Positions 1,744-10,131 of a DNA stretch of 64,000 nucleotides are shown in pieces (the first letter of the stretch is position 1; every line of letters begins with the position of its first letter). This DNA is from Rubrimonas cliftonensis. GTDB taxonomy: Bacteria > Pseudomonadota > Alphaproteobacteria > Rhodobacterales > Rhodobacteraceae. The stretch is taken from positions 310,001 through 374,000 of the forward strand of contig NZ_FNQM01000001.1 of the NCBI RefSeq assembly GCF_900107585.1, given 5' to 3'. The notes beneath the pieces were generated by a model that did no database searches, was not told the origin of the DNA, and saw only the letters and a list, made by a program, of their open reading frames with translations. The position numbers and the translations under genes are program-made.

Positions 1744-3372
1744 TCAGAAGACGAACGCCGTCTCGTCGAGGAGGTCGAGCCCGGAACCGTCGAGAACGAT
1801 GCGCCCGCCGTCTCCATCCTCGATCACCGCGCGCCGGCCGACCAGTCGGATCGAGAGGTCGCCGAACCCGCCGACGCCCGCGTGCAGGGAGAAGTCGAGC
1901 AGGTCGGAGCCGACGCGGAAATCGATGACCCGGTCCGAACCGAAACCCTCGCGGAACACCAGCACGTCGCGCCCCGGCCCCGCCACGATGCGGTCGTTCC
2001 CGGCGCCGCCCTCGATCAGGTCGTCGCCGATGCCGCCGCGGATGAAGTCGTCGCCCGCGCCGCCGTCGATGCTGTCGTCGCCGCGCCACGCGAACAGCAC
2101 GTCGTCGCCGTCGCCGCCGTCGATCAGGTCGTCGCCGAGCCCCGCCTTCACCGTATCGGCGCCGGACTGGCCGAACACGGTGTCGTCGCCGTCGCCGGCG
2201 AGCGCCACGTCGTCGCCGGCGCCGCAGGAGATGCGGTCGTCGTCGTCGCCGCTCCTGAGCACGTCGTCGCCGTCGCCGCCGATCAGCCACTCCCGGAACG
2301 CGCTGCCGATGATGCGGTCGTCGCCGTCGCCGCCGTCGAGCACCACGGGGAAGCCCGCGCGCGCCTCGCCGAACTCGCTGCCGACGCGCCCGTCGATCAC
2401 GTCGGCGCCGCCGCCGCCGACCGCGAAACGGTCGCCCCGCTCCGTGACCAGACGATCCGCGCCATCGCCGCCGAGCACGGCGGTGGTGGCGACGTAGCTC
2501 ACCCGGCCGTCGGCCGCGCCGTCGAGTCGGTCAAGCAGCGCCAGCGCGTCGCGGTCGGCCGAAATTACCGCCGACGCATAGACGTCGCGTTCGAACTCCC
2601 CGCCAGATTGAGCCGACTCGACGGCGATGATGTCCGGCAATCCGTCCCCGGTTATGTCGTCGATCACGTTCACGTAGCGCAGGCTAGGAAACCCGCTCCC
2701 GGCGATCGCATTCGACCACCCGGTCAGGATGAAGCCATTCGACCCATCGATGGCCGAAAGCGCAAGGTCGGGAACGCCGTCTGGGCCTCCGTAGACGATC
2801 ACCGCATGGGGGTCGTCACCGCCGGGGAGGCCGGTCTCGCTGTCGTAATCCACCATGGCCAGCGTCACGCGGTCGGCGTAGCCGTCGCCGTCGATGTCCG
2901 CATCAATGAACGCGGGACCGTCGAACAAACCGACAGCCCCTTGCGAAGCCCCGGGCGCACCGGCGAGCGGCGCGTCACTGCCGCGCACGGCGTCGAATGC
3001 GACGATGAACGGGGGCGCGAAGTTCTGGAAGACCTCCACGGCCGCCCCTTGCGGCGGCGCGAGGTCGATGAGGACGCGTCGTTGCGGAAAGGCGGCGCCA
3101 CCGAGGATCGTGGTGTAGACAATCGGCTCAAAGGCAAAGCCGGTATCGGGATCGACCAGAAAGTCGCCGCTGCTTGCGTCGACGAAGAACGCGGTTTCGG
3201 TGACGAACAGGTCCAGCGCGCCGTCGCCGTCGACATCGCCGATCTGCTCTGACCCTCTTAACGTGGACACGATCATTGCAGGCGCCCCTCCAAAGCTCGA
3301 GAAACCAATCTCCGCCGCGCCAAGGTCACCAGAGCTTCTCATGGGCGACATGGCGTGTATAGTGGCGGCCAT
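1744..3372 (-). CDS. RTX-type calcium-binding protein with FG-GAP-like N-terminal region
   Basis: A protein of about 542 residues. The N-terminal half carries Asp-rich FG-GAP/dockerin-like calcium loops (IGDVDGDGALDLFV, IDADIDGDGYADRV, ITGDGLPDIIAV). The C-terminal half is a run of hemolysin-type nonapeptides (GGDGDDVLxxG, GGAGDDFIRGG, GGAGNDRIVAG) and ends in a hydrophobic DETAFVF tail. That composition is typical of proteins exported by a type I secretion system without a signal peptide; no exporter genes lie in the window. The frame is open up to 3498, but that would begin 6 bases from the divergent leuA start. The ATG at 3372 is a more conservative choice, with 3351 or 3342 also possible, since none has a convincing ribosome binding site. 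Confidence 0.8.
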   Translation of the reverse strand: MAATIHAMSPMRSSGDLGAAEIGFSSFGGAPAMIVSTLRGSEQIGDVDGDGALDLFVTETAFFVDASSGDFLVDPDTGFAFEPIVYTTILGGAAFPQRRVLIDLAPPQGAAVEVFQNFAPPFIVAFDAVRGSDAPLAGAPGASQGAVGLFDGPAFIDADIDGDGYADRVTLAMVDYDSETGLPGGDDPHAVIVYGGPDGVPDLALSAIDGSNGFILTGWSNAIAGSGFPSLRYVNVIDDITGDGLPDIIAVESAQSGGEFERDVYASAVISADRDALALLDRLDGAADGRVSYVATTAVLGGDGADRLVTERGDRFAVGGGGADVIDGRVGSEFGEARAGFPVVLDGGDGDDRIIGSAFREWLIGGDGDDVLRSGDDDDRISCGAGDDVALAGDGDDTVFGQSGADTVKAGLGDDLIDGGDGDDVLFAWRGDDSIDGGAGDDFIRGGIGDDLIEGGAGNDRIVAGPGRDVLVFREGFGSDRVIDFRVGSDLLDFSLHAGVGGFGDLSIRLVGRRAVIEDGDGGRIVLDGSGLDLLDETAFVF

Positions 3373-3503
3373 GAGCGACGCCCGCTGCACCTCGCTGCCC
3401 CTGCTGCTTAGCCGCCCCTGAGCGCGGCCGTCTCGCGGCGCGCGCTCGGGGGTGACCTCCGACGCCGCGGGACCATCCAGCAGCAAGTTACGGACCATAC
3501 GCC

Positions 3504-5217: not shown

Positions 5218-7023
5218 GTGGCGCAGAGCGACGCGCTGAGGGAGATCGGCCTGCTCGACGGCGAGGCCGAGCCCTCCTTCGACCGTTTGCTGCGTTGGAT
5301 CGCCCACCGTCTCGGGGTGGAGGTCGTGCTGCTCAGCGTCATCGACGAACAGGGCGATCGGCAGTTCTTCAAGAGCGCCCTCGGCCTCGCCGAGCCATGG
5401 GCGTCTCAGCGGCAGACGCCGCTCTCCCACTCGTTCTGCCGACTGGTCGCCGCCACGGACGCTCCCGTGGTCATCCGGGACGCGCGGGAGGATGAGCGGG
5501 TCTATGAGAACCCCGCGATCGCTGATCTCGGCGTCATCGCCTATCTGGGCGTGCCTGTCGCGCCGGTGGGCCGCTCGCCGATCGGCGCGCTCTGCGCGAT
5601 CGGGTCGACCCCGCGAGACTGGACTGCGGCCGATCTCGATGACCTCCGGGTGATCGCGGACTCCGTCTCGAATCAGATCAGCCTCAAGCTGTCGCTGCGC
5701 GCCGCCGAGAAGGCGCAGCGAGAGATCGCGGCGGTCTCCCATGCGCTGAACGAGGCCAACCGCCGCTTCGCCGACCTCGCCGCCAACGTGCCGGGAGCGA
5801 TCTTCCGCTACCTGGCCCGCCCCGGCGGCCGCGACGCGATCGAGTACATGTCTCCCGGCTGCGTCGACATCTGGGAAATCCCGGCGGAACGGCTGATGGG
5901 CGACCCGAAGCTGCTGTGGGAAGCCGTCGAGAGCGAGGATCTCACCGACACGGTGGCCTCGGTCCGGCGTTCGGCGCAGGATCTCACGCCGTGGCGCCAT
6001 CGCTGGCGCATCGTGACGCCCTCGGGCCAGACCAAATGGCTGCAGGGTTACGGCGCGCCCCGCCGTCTCGACGACGGCTCGGTGCTGTGGAACACCCTCA
6101 TCCTCGACATCACCGTCGAGGTCGCGGCTCAACGCGAGTTGACCGAGACAGTCAGAATGCTGAACGAGGCCCGGAAGCAGGAGGTCATCGGGCGGCTCGC
6201 AGGCGGCGTCGCTCATGATTTCAACGACCTGCTCACCACAATTCTCGGGAACGCCGAACTCGCGATGGAGACGCCGGAGGCCCATGACCGCGACGGCATT
6301 CTATCCGAAATACGGGCGGCGGCGCTTCGCGGCGCCGAACTGAACCAGAGCCTGCTGAGCTTCGCACGCCGCTCGACCCCCAACCCCACCATGCTGGACA
6401 CCAATGACGCGATCTCCTGAATTCGCCCGCTCATCCGCCTGACGCCGCCCGAGAACATTTCCATCGAGGTCGCGCTGGCGGCGGACCTGCGGCGGGCGCG
6501 CGTGGGCCGGGCGCTGCTGGAGTGCGCGCTGCTCAACCTCGTGGTCAACGCCCGCGGCGCCATGCCGAGGGGCGGCGCGCTGATCATCGAGACCGCGAAC
6601 ATCGACGTTACCGCGGACTTCATCGCCGGGCGCGCCGAGATGCTCGCGCCCGGCCGCCATGTGATGATCGCGGTGACCGGCATCAGCGAAGGCGTTGGGC
6701 AAGAGCATCTCGGACGAATCTTCGAGCCGTTCTTGCCCACCTGCCCCCCCTGACAGGGACCGCGGCCTCGAGCTGGCGACGGCGCATGGGTTCGTTCAGC
6801 AGTCCGGCGGCGCGATAGCCGTACGTTCCGAACCGGGTCGCGGCGCATCGTTCAGCATCTACCTCCCGGCCGCTGACGACGAGGGCCCGGCGGCCGCGGC
6901 GCCGCGCGCCTCGGGCCACCCCCCGCGACCGCGGCTGCAGGAACAGTCCCGCTCGTCGAGGATATCGACCGGCAGGCGCTCCTCACAGACGTCCTGCTCG
7001 ACCGGAAAGCCGCCGCCGACTGA
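5218..7023 (+). pseudogene. Decayed hybrid sensor histidine kinase (GAF-PAS-HisKA-HATPase-receiver)
   Basis: The first 400 codons, from a GTG at 5218, encode a GAF domain, a PAS domain and a HisKA dimerisation helix with LAGGVAHDFNDLL carrying the phospho-acceptor His. A TGA at 6418-6420 interrupts the frame just before IRPLIRLTPPENI, where the family normally continues, consistent with a CGA to TGA change. The ATPase domain then runs in the same frame with damaged boxes: VNARGAM instead of the usual VNARDAM, and a broken G1 box (VTGISEGVG). The frame is lost around 6735-6756 near a run of C. ATAHGFVQQSGGAIAVRSEPGRG continues in the next frame, and a receiver-like start (VPLVEDIDRQALLTDVLL) is found in yet another frame before a stop at 7023. 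Several independent lesions argue for real decay rather than one sequencing error. Confidence 0.85.
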
Positions 7024-8540: not shown

Positions 8541-9581
8541 TCAGGCGGCGCTGGCGTCCGGCGCGGCGAGCGAGGCCCGCCGGTAGGCGTGGGCGAGGTT
8601 GCGCAGCCGGGGCGTCGCGGCGGCCTCGGTCTCGGCCCGCGTCTCGACGCGGGTGCGCGCCACGAGGTCTCTGAAAGCCTCGGCCCGGCCGTCGCGCATC
8701 CAGTCGGCCGCCATCTGCGCCAGCCGCCCCTGCCCGAGCCGACCCACAGCGAAGCGCCGCGCGAAGCCGTGGCCCATGGGCAGGATCGCCCCGTCGCTCT
8801 CGATCACCAGCGGGCTCGTCACGTCGGCGAAGCCCGCCTCCCGGCCGCAGCGCCCGCGCGCGATCTCCGGCGCGATCTCCGGCGAGCCGGGCATGCTGAG
8901 TTGATAGTCCAGAACCACCTTCAGCCTGCCTTCCCAGCGCGCCTGAGCAGCCGTCGCGGCTTCCGCAGCGCGCAGCGCCGCGTCGTCGTCTGGCTTCGCC
9001 GCCGCCATCTCGGCGTCGCCCTCGGCGCGTCCCGTGGTGTCGAGCGGGTGGATCTGCAGCAGCGCCGCGCCCTGCTCTACGGCGAACTCGGCCGCCCACG
9101 CGATCTCCCCGACATTGTCTCGGCTCAACGTGAACAGGAAGCCGAACGGCACGCCGCTGTCGCGCAGGGCCGGCAGCTTCGCCGCCATGGTCTCGAAGGC
9201 GCGCGGGTTGGCGCGCATCCAGTCGTGCCGGGCGGGCGCGCCGTCGAGCGACACCGCCAGCAGGTCAAGCGCGCCCTGCAGCGGCGCCAGCCGCCGCGGG
9301 TCGAGATACATGCCGTTGGTCACGATCGCCGTGCGCATGCCGAGGCCCTTCGCGTGCGCGACGATCTCCGGCGCCGCCGGATACAGGAAAGGTTCGCCGC
9401 CGGAGAGGGTCGCGAAGGTGAAGCCGAGCGCCGCGGCGTCGTCGAGCGCCGCCGTCAGCGCGCGCGCCTCCAGCGCCTCGCGAACGTCCGGCCCCGACGA
9501 GGAATAGCAGTGGCGGCAGGTGAGGTTGCAGCGCCGCGTCACATGGATCTGCAGCGTGCGGGTCGCGGGACGATCAGCCAT
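8541..9581 (-). CDS. Radical SAM enzyme, PqqE/SPASM-like, probable peptide maturase
   Basis: A 346-residue protein. C18, C22 and C25 in CNLTCRHC form the CxxxCxxC 4Fe-4S/SAM site, followed by GGEP (61-64), SLDG and the usual TIM-barrel landmarks. The C-terminal segment resembles a SPASM/twitch domain (GRCGREAG at 242-250, then SDGAILPMGHGF), but only one further Cys (C245) is present, and the usual PC is PM, with a His nearby. The whole protein has four Cys. It therefore probably cannot hold two full auxiliary clusters. It lies 74 bases downstream of a small peptide gene on the same strand, with a perfect hairpin between them, which suggests that it modifies that peptide. No RRE domain, protease or exporter is next to it. 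The ATG at 9581 follows a GGAAGG-like site. Confidence 0.85.
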   Translation of the reverse strand: MADRPATRTLQIHVTRRCNLTCRHCYSSSGPDVREALEARALTAALDDAAALGFTFATLSGGEPFLYPAAPEIVAHAKGLGMRTAIVTNGMYLDPRRLAPLQGALDLLAVSLDGAPARHDWMRANPRAFETMAAKLPALRDSGVPFGFLFTLSRDNVGEIAWAAEFAVEQGAALLQIHPLDTTGRAEGDAEMAAAKPDDDAALRAAEAATAAQARWEGRLKVVLDYQLSMPGSPEIAPEIARGRCGREAGFADVTSPLVIESDGAILPMGHGFARRFAVGRLGQGRLAQMAADWMRDGRAEAFRDLVARTRVETRAETEAAATPRLRNLAHAYRRASLAAPDASAA

Positions 9582-9622
9582 CGGTCGCTCGCCTTCCGTC
9601 TGAGGTGCATCGGTGGGGGAGA

Positions 9623-9650
9623 GCGCCGGGCCGCCGAAACGGCCCGGCGC
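9623..9650 (-). promoter_or_regulatory. Perfect hairpin between peptide gene and radical SAM gene
   Basis: An 11-bp perfect inverted repeat (CGGCCCGGCGC and its complement) with a 6-base loop starts 5 bases after the peptide stop codon. No T-tract follows. Such hairpins in bacteriocin and other peptide operons act as leaky terminators or mRNA stabilisers, so that the precursor is made in excess over the enzyme. That role here is inferred. Confidence 0.7.
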
Positions 9651-9655
9651 GGGCT

Positions 9656-9889
9656 TCAGAAGCCCATCAGGCCGCCGTCGAAGAAGTCCGACGGAATGCC
9701 GTCGATCATCCCGTCGTCGCCGGGCAGGATCTTCTCGATCGCTTCGAACTTCACCGCGTCGAGCGTCAGCCCGCCGCGGCTTGCAGTGGCGAAGCCGCCG
9801 ACCTTCTGGACGAACCACGGATCGACAATGCCGTTATCGATCGGTTCGGGAACGAGGATCTTGAAGTCGAAAGAGAGCTCACGATACAT
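9656..9889 (-). CDS. Small Cys-free peptide, candidate radical SAM substrate (RiPP precursor)
   Basis: A 77-residue acidic peptide starting MYRELSFDFKILVPEPI and ending IPSDFFDGGLMGF. The ATG at 9889 is chosen because GGAGGA lies 7 bases before it; upstream in-frame ATGs at 9937, 9928 and 9904 have no such site, and the 9904 codon overlaps it. There is no Cys, no signal peptide and no membrane helix. The middle (GGFATASRGGLTLDAVKFEAIEKILPG) could be part of a leader or recognition region. The last 20 residues are Asp-, Gly- and Phe-rich and hold the motif DFFDGG. Position, size, the hairpin behind it and the radical SAM gene next in line suggest a precursor peptide. I do not recognise the family. 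Confidence 0.7.
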   Translation of the reverse strand: MYRELSFDFKILVPEPIDNGIVDPWFVQKVGGFATASRGGLTLDAVKFEAIEKILPGDDGMIDGIPSDFFDGGLMGF

Positions 9890-10131
9890 CTCAACTTCCT
9901 CCATGGTGATGAGAAGTGAGACGATCATGCTTAACACGCGTCATGTCGGCGTGATCACACCGTCATCTCCGCGTCAGCCGCAAGCGACAGACCGAAACCG
10001 GAAGGGTCACGCACGGCGGCGTGTCGTCAGACGTCGTGCTGCGACTTGGACTTGACCAGAGGGCGCCGATTCGGCGGGCCGCCAAACTTGCGGCGGACCC
10101 ACCTGCGCCGGCGACGGGCCGTCGCGGCGCC

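Follow-up and report, generated by a model that had tools for sequence, protein, structure and literature searches.

What does a radical SAM (rSAM) enzyme do when its gene stands directly behind that of a short, cysteine-free peptide, and is this peptide its substrate? The question is raised by a minus-strand locus in the window, the whole 64,000-nucleotide stretch of Rubrimonas cliftonensis DNA that was analyzed. An earlier note had described there a 77-residue peptide gene with a ribosome binding site, followed by a perfect hairpin and an rSAM gene, and all of these elements were found. They are given below together with the residues that align with L012, a second copy of the locus in another genus.

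9902..9898, minus strand: Shine-Dalgarno sequence GGAGG, 8 nt 5′ of the peptide ATG
9889..9656, minus strand: 77-aa peptide gene (ORF and translation, MYRELSFDFKILVPEPIDNGIVDPWFVQKVGGFATASRGGLTLDAVKFEAIEKILPGDDGMIDGIPSDFFDGGLMGF), the candidate rSAM substrate
9695..9712, minus strand: GMIDGI codons, residues 60-65 of the peptide, identical in L012
9659..9694, minus strand: C-terminal tail of the peptide, PSDFFDGGLMGF, in which D68, F70, M75, and the terminal F77 align with L012
9650..9623, minus strand: perfect 12-bp stem with a 4-nt loop, directly 3′ of the peptide stop
9581..8541, minus strand: 346-aa radical SAM gene (Pfam Radical_SAM, E=2.6e-19)
9507..9530, minus strand: codons of the CxxxCxxC cluster motif in the sequence (CNLTCRHC, residues 18-25)
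8847..8849, minus strand: C245 codon, aligned with Cys244 of L012, a candidate H-atom donor

The best reading of this arrangement, and one that we consider probable, is that peptide and enzyme are a precursor-maturase pair in which the rSAM enzyme radically modifies the adjacent peptide. The peptide is acidic (pI 4.1), and the codon-position GC of its frame (0.60/0.37/0.83) shows the same coding pattern as the rSAM gene (0.74/0.56/0.92) and the neighboring mscS (0.68/0.44/0.94). It had no matches in Pfam, NCBIfam, or PHROGs. Searching 296 genomes of the same family with the peptide returned only itself above noise, with everything else at E>0.01, and a search of plasmids gave only noise (E>0.01).

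The second copy was recovered via the rSAM, since its peptide is too diverged to be found with a 77-aa query. A search of the 296 family genomes with the enzyme identified one close orthologue (G146/L012, 54-55% identical) in another genus, and directly 5′ of it, in the same orientation, lies a 61-aa acidic ORF (MYIIDWRDLGQAPEDFFNAKPDYSAVSFEPVELDVRGVLGNGGMIDGIVDDIVFLPDMMQF) with its own Shine-Dalgarno sequence (AAAGGAG) at a spacing similar to that in the window. As had been stated for the window peptide, neither of the two contains any Cys. They share 24 identical columns, including an MY start, AVxFExxE, GMIDGI, a D, an F, and an M-x-F end, and align with a Smith-Waterman score of 50. Only 1 of 5000 shuffles scored as high, and among 6317 ORFs of 45-140 aa taken from unrelated loci, none did. 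Claims on the conservation of the peptide are thin because only two sequences are available (n=2 after ~2,000 genome slots searched, many of them the same genomes repeated).

The genes flanking the pair differ between the window (mscS, OmpW, and an FMO-like gene) and L012 (plsY, glutamate-cysteine ligase (GCS2), and an amidohydrolase), where they are housekeeping genes unrelated to the pair; the unit is thus a self-contained two-gene cassette. The one other genome of the window's genus that was examined lacks the rSAM. The immediate neighbors of the cassette, in the window and in L012, include no gene for a protease, an exporter/transporter, or an RRE, so that the product would either remain inside the cell or depend for its processing on enzymes whose genes lie elsewhere.

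The hairpin was also found in L012, where a 12-bp stem with a 4-nt loop, different in sequence from that of the window, follows just past the peptide stop. When each intergenic region was shuffled 2000 times by a Markov model, stems of at least 12 bp arose 4 times for the window and 8 times for L012. The folding z-scores are modest in both, at -1.95 for the window, where the region is GC-rich and the score limited for this reason, and at -1.56 for L012. From peptide stop to rSAM start, the gap measures 74 nt in the window and 81 nt in L012. An Rfam scan gave no match in the cassette region, a sigma-70 promoter scan found none, and terminator-like sites were not above chance. The window hairpin is probably an attenuator or an mRNA-stabilizing stem.

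In the rSAM enzyme, the CxxxCxxC/SGGEP core is intact, and apart from the three cluster ligands at positions 18, 22, and 25, the sequence contains a single Cys, C245. The C-terminal domain lacks the auxiliary-cluster Cys of SPASM maturases, C245 being the single non-core Cys, which bears out the description of a degenerate SPASM in the earlier note. Its label "PqqE-like" holds only loosely: the enzyme scored 69 bits on the PqqE model, whose cutoff is 381, and came nearest to NirJ, with 92.8 bits where 515 are required. As the mycofactocin MftC model also remained far below its threshold (52.5 bits vs 265), the enzyme fits no named NCBIfam family, and no epimerase family appeared among its 25 best NCBIfam matches. 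The AlphaFold2 model (pLDDT 84.7) places C245 in a loop of low confidence (pLDDT about 41-44 over residues 230-248). Among PDB structures, SkfB (Z 26.5, rmsd 5.2 with 281 aligned) and SuiB (Z 24.0), both RiPP maturases, come nearest to this model, followed by BlsE (Z 23.4), viperins (Z about 22), and PqqE (Z 21.9). A role in defence was considered and set aside, as the PADLOC matches were viperins covering only residues 10-116, i.e., the common rSAM core.

A maximum-likelihood tree grouped the window and L012 enzymes (support 100/99) within a nine-member clade (window, L012, L019, L013, L014, L099, L100, L102, and L015) that stands apart from NirJ and other rSAMs at 100/100, with L015 on a long branch. 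All eight rSAMs aligned (alignment A2) have CNLxCxHCYSxSxP and SGGEP in common and lack auxiliary-cluster Cys. NirJ, the haem d1 rSAM, is the nearest named HMM and shares the CNLTCxHCYS stretch, whereas HCYSxS is mostly followed by SAD in NirJ-type relatives, which carry 4-7 further Cys. The clade is rare: matches were found in 8 of the 296 family genomes at E<=1e-25 (the window's own included), in 6 of 391 genomes of the order and 1 of 385 of the class at 1e-32, in 1 of 175 genomes of the phylum by profile search, and in 2 of 154 genomes of the class to which the distant genome G968 belongs. Plasmids contained neither the rSAM nor the small protein described below, and viral contigs gave only distant rSAM superfamily matches.

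In every clade member, a small ORF lies directly upstream of the rSAM. In L013, L014, L099, L100/L101, L102, L019, and L183, this ORF encodes a ~100-aa protein with a D-x-C-x-[YF]-G-x-C motif (except in L019, which has a longer insertion between its two Cys) and, downstream of it, an [FM][PI]xGI motif. The CxYGxC/CxFGxC small-protein genes are as follows.

L013:1097-1453
L014:1106-1423
L099:2395-2727
L100:1127-1489
L102:2343-2639
L019:5628-5963
L183:2528-2764

These ORFs overlap the rSAM start or end within about 20 nt of it, and the ~100-aa protein and the cluster-less rSAM form an adjacent pair wherever they were found. Indeed, the small-protein profile matched exactly 2 of the 296 genomes, those with that rSAM type, in each case adjoining the rSAM gene. 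In the AlphaFold2 prediction (pLDDT 82), two helices precede a pair of beta-hairpins, with CxYGxC at a predicted beta-hairpin turn; a PDB search with this model gave no convincing match, with nothing above background, and Pfam and NCBIfam assigned the protein to no family. Homology of the window peptide with these proteins, at which a MAFFT alignment had hinted, is not put forward here, as HMM and HHalign comparisons gave no support: the CxYGxC-protein profile (alignment A3) had no significant score on the window or L012 peptide, and the resemblance is limited to position and a short G-I motif. It is possible, though doubtful, that this unnamed clade, which has no auxiliary clusters, modifies Cys-free peptides at GMIDGI in one branch and, in the other, folded proteins of ~100 aa at the hairpin tips that carry CxYGxC; such single-cluster rSAM enzymes would give a new class of products derived from peptides or proteins. 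L015, whose rSAM diverges most within the clade, has a different upstream ORF of 113 aa (L015:1130-1471), which by visual comparison is unrelated to the other small proteins.

The identity of the substrate was weighed against these data. The structural neighbors that are RiPP maturases (SkfB, SuiB, and PqqE) suggest that the rSAM most likely modifies the adjacent peptide; against this, the nearest named models, NirJ and AhbD, are haem enzymes, and BlsE, a nucleoside-sugar decarboxylase, is structurally close. These same models are what a small-molecule substrate (tetrapyrrole or nucleoside/sugar) would draw upon, with the peptide reduced to a regulatory or leader ORF. We regard this as highly improbable, as the clade is split from NirJ at 100/100 and lacks HCYSxSAD and the 4-7 extra Cys, no tetrapyrrole or nucleoside genes were found among the flanking genes examined, and the peptide has its own Shine-Dalgarno sequence and is conserved at the protein level over several blocks. 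The small protein could otherwise serve the enzyme as a dedicated partner or chaperone, the true substrate being elsewhere. The compact fold predicted for the ~100-aa partner in the distant members of the clade (pLDDT 82) would suit such a role, as would the overlap or the spacing of within about 20 nt from the rSAM start, which suggests 1:1 production. The window and L012 peptides, however, are short and acidic and lie 74-81 nt away from the rSAM with a hairpin in between, and their conservation is mainly C-terminal, as expected for a precursor made in excess, making this explanation rather unlikely.

The precursor-maturase pair is thus the reading that we retain. The 77-aa peptide would be the substrate, and the downstream rSAM would modify its C-terminal region, residues 1 to about 55 acting as the leader and the GMIDGI...F...MxF tail as the modified core. 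The hairpin and the 74-81-nt gap might place the peptide in excess over the enzyme, the hairpin keeping peptide mRNA above enzyme mRNA. The earlier interpretation as a RiPP locus stands in its layout, as the order precursor, hairpin, and maturase is conserved in L012 and a conserved short precursor ORF adjoins the maturase gene in both places (two genomes only), but not in the cyclophane chemistry that had been proposed for it. The lack of a conserved peptide in front of orthologous rSAM genes, which the earlier note had named as a refutation, was thus not what L012 showed.

That chemistry would be an oxidative crosslink (triceptide/cyclophane or a related C-C or C-N bond) in the FFDGG region. 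Triceptide enzymes link an aromatic residue to residue i+2 (PMC11002830), and FFD (F-x-D) near the C-terminus of the window peptide fits the spacing of the three-residue aromatic-x-acceptor motif. The enzyme fold, closest to RiPP maturases, also agrees with a crosslink, and a small precursor beside an rSAM is what triceptide and 3-CyFE systems have as well. However, no F-x-D site is present in the corresponding L012 tail (GMIDGIVDDIVFLPDMMQF; IVDDIVFLPDMMQF), so that the window system has no conserved aromatic-x-acceptor motif, and the enzyme lacks the SPASM/twitch auxiliary-cluster Cys. In crosslinking rSAM enzymes, such clusters are essential for modification and are probably electron sinks (PMC8326336). 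Hence, we consider a crosslink improbable.

Given that the peptide is the substrate, redox-neutral chemistry, in the first place C-alpha epimerization, can tentatively be put forward from the sequences, although we would not yet count on it. It is favored because auxiliary Cys are missing from the enzyme, because its sole additional Cys (C245) is aligned in L012, and because the core contains two invariant Ile. Speculatively, epimerization might take place at Ile62 and/or Ile65, with C245 donating the H atom. A counterpart of C245 is absent from most other clade members, and the alignment with L012 is that of one orthologue only. The loss of 2 Da per crosslink that had been proposed as a read-out would miss redox-neutral chemistry such as epimerization.

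In the epimerases EpeE and PoyD, the H atom is donated by one conserved Cys of the enzyme (PMC8326336), and the single extra Cys of the window enzyme and its one orthologue recalls EpeE/YydG and PoyD in this respect. EpeE targets Val36 and Ile44 (PMC8326336), so that Ile, present here in the conserved precursor core, is among its targets. EpeE differs in that the titles of its PDB entries speak of [4Fe-4S] clusters rather than of one cluster. The precursors of PoyD, unlike the window peptide, are proteusins of the nitrile-hydratase-like type. The mycofactocin precursor MftA has an IDG motif and an aromatic C-terminus and resembles the window peptide in both; its CGVY end is lacking in the latter. 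With the SPASM or twitch maturases SkfB, SuiB, and PqqE, the window system shares the rSAM fold over most of the chain and a small precursor gene beside the enzyme gene, but its enzyme has no N-terminal RRE extension and no auxiliary-cluster Cys, and its precursor is unrelated.

The layout and the enzyme superfamily are already known. No library that was searched contains the peptide family, the cluster-less clade, or the CxYGxC partners, and a literature search, mostly at the level of titles and abstracts and outside subscription papers, returned no description of any of the three. Should the peptide be modified without auxiliary clusters, the pair would offer a minimal system for asking what these clusters do in rSAM peptide chemistry, as well as an uncatalogued RiPP-like family in the form of an easily expressed two-gene cassette. 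The pairs of CxYGxC small protein and rSAM extend this scope to a rare clade in the window's family and to a second, distant lineage.

Elsewhere in the window, the frame of a GAF/PAS-type histidine kinase (5218-6818) is seemingly broken: the frame at 5218-6420 stops and kinase-like sequence resumes in other frames (6502-6753 and 6695 onwards), which might reflect a pseudogene or a sequencing error. Finally, positions 223-1683 and 1744-3498 encode a long MORN-repeat-like protein and a convergent neighbor with RTX-like GGxGxD repeats.
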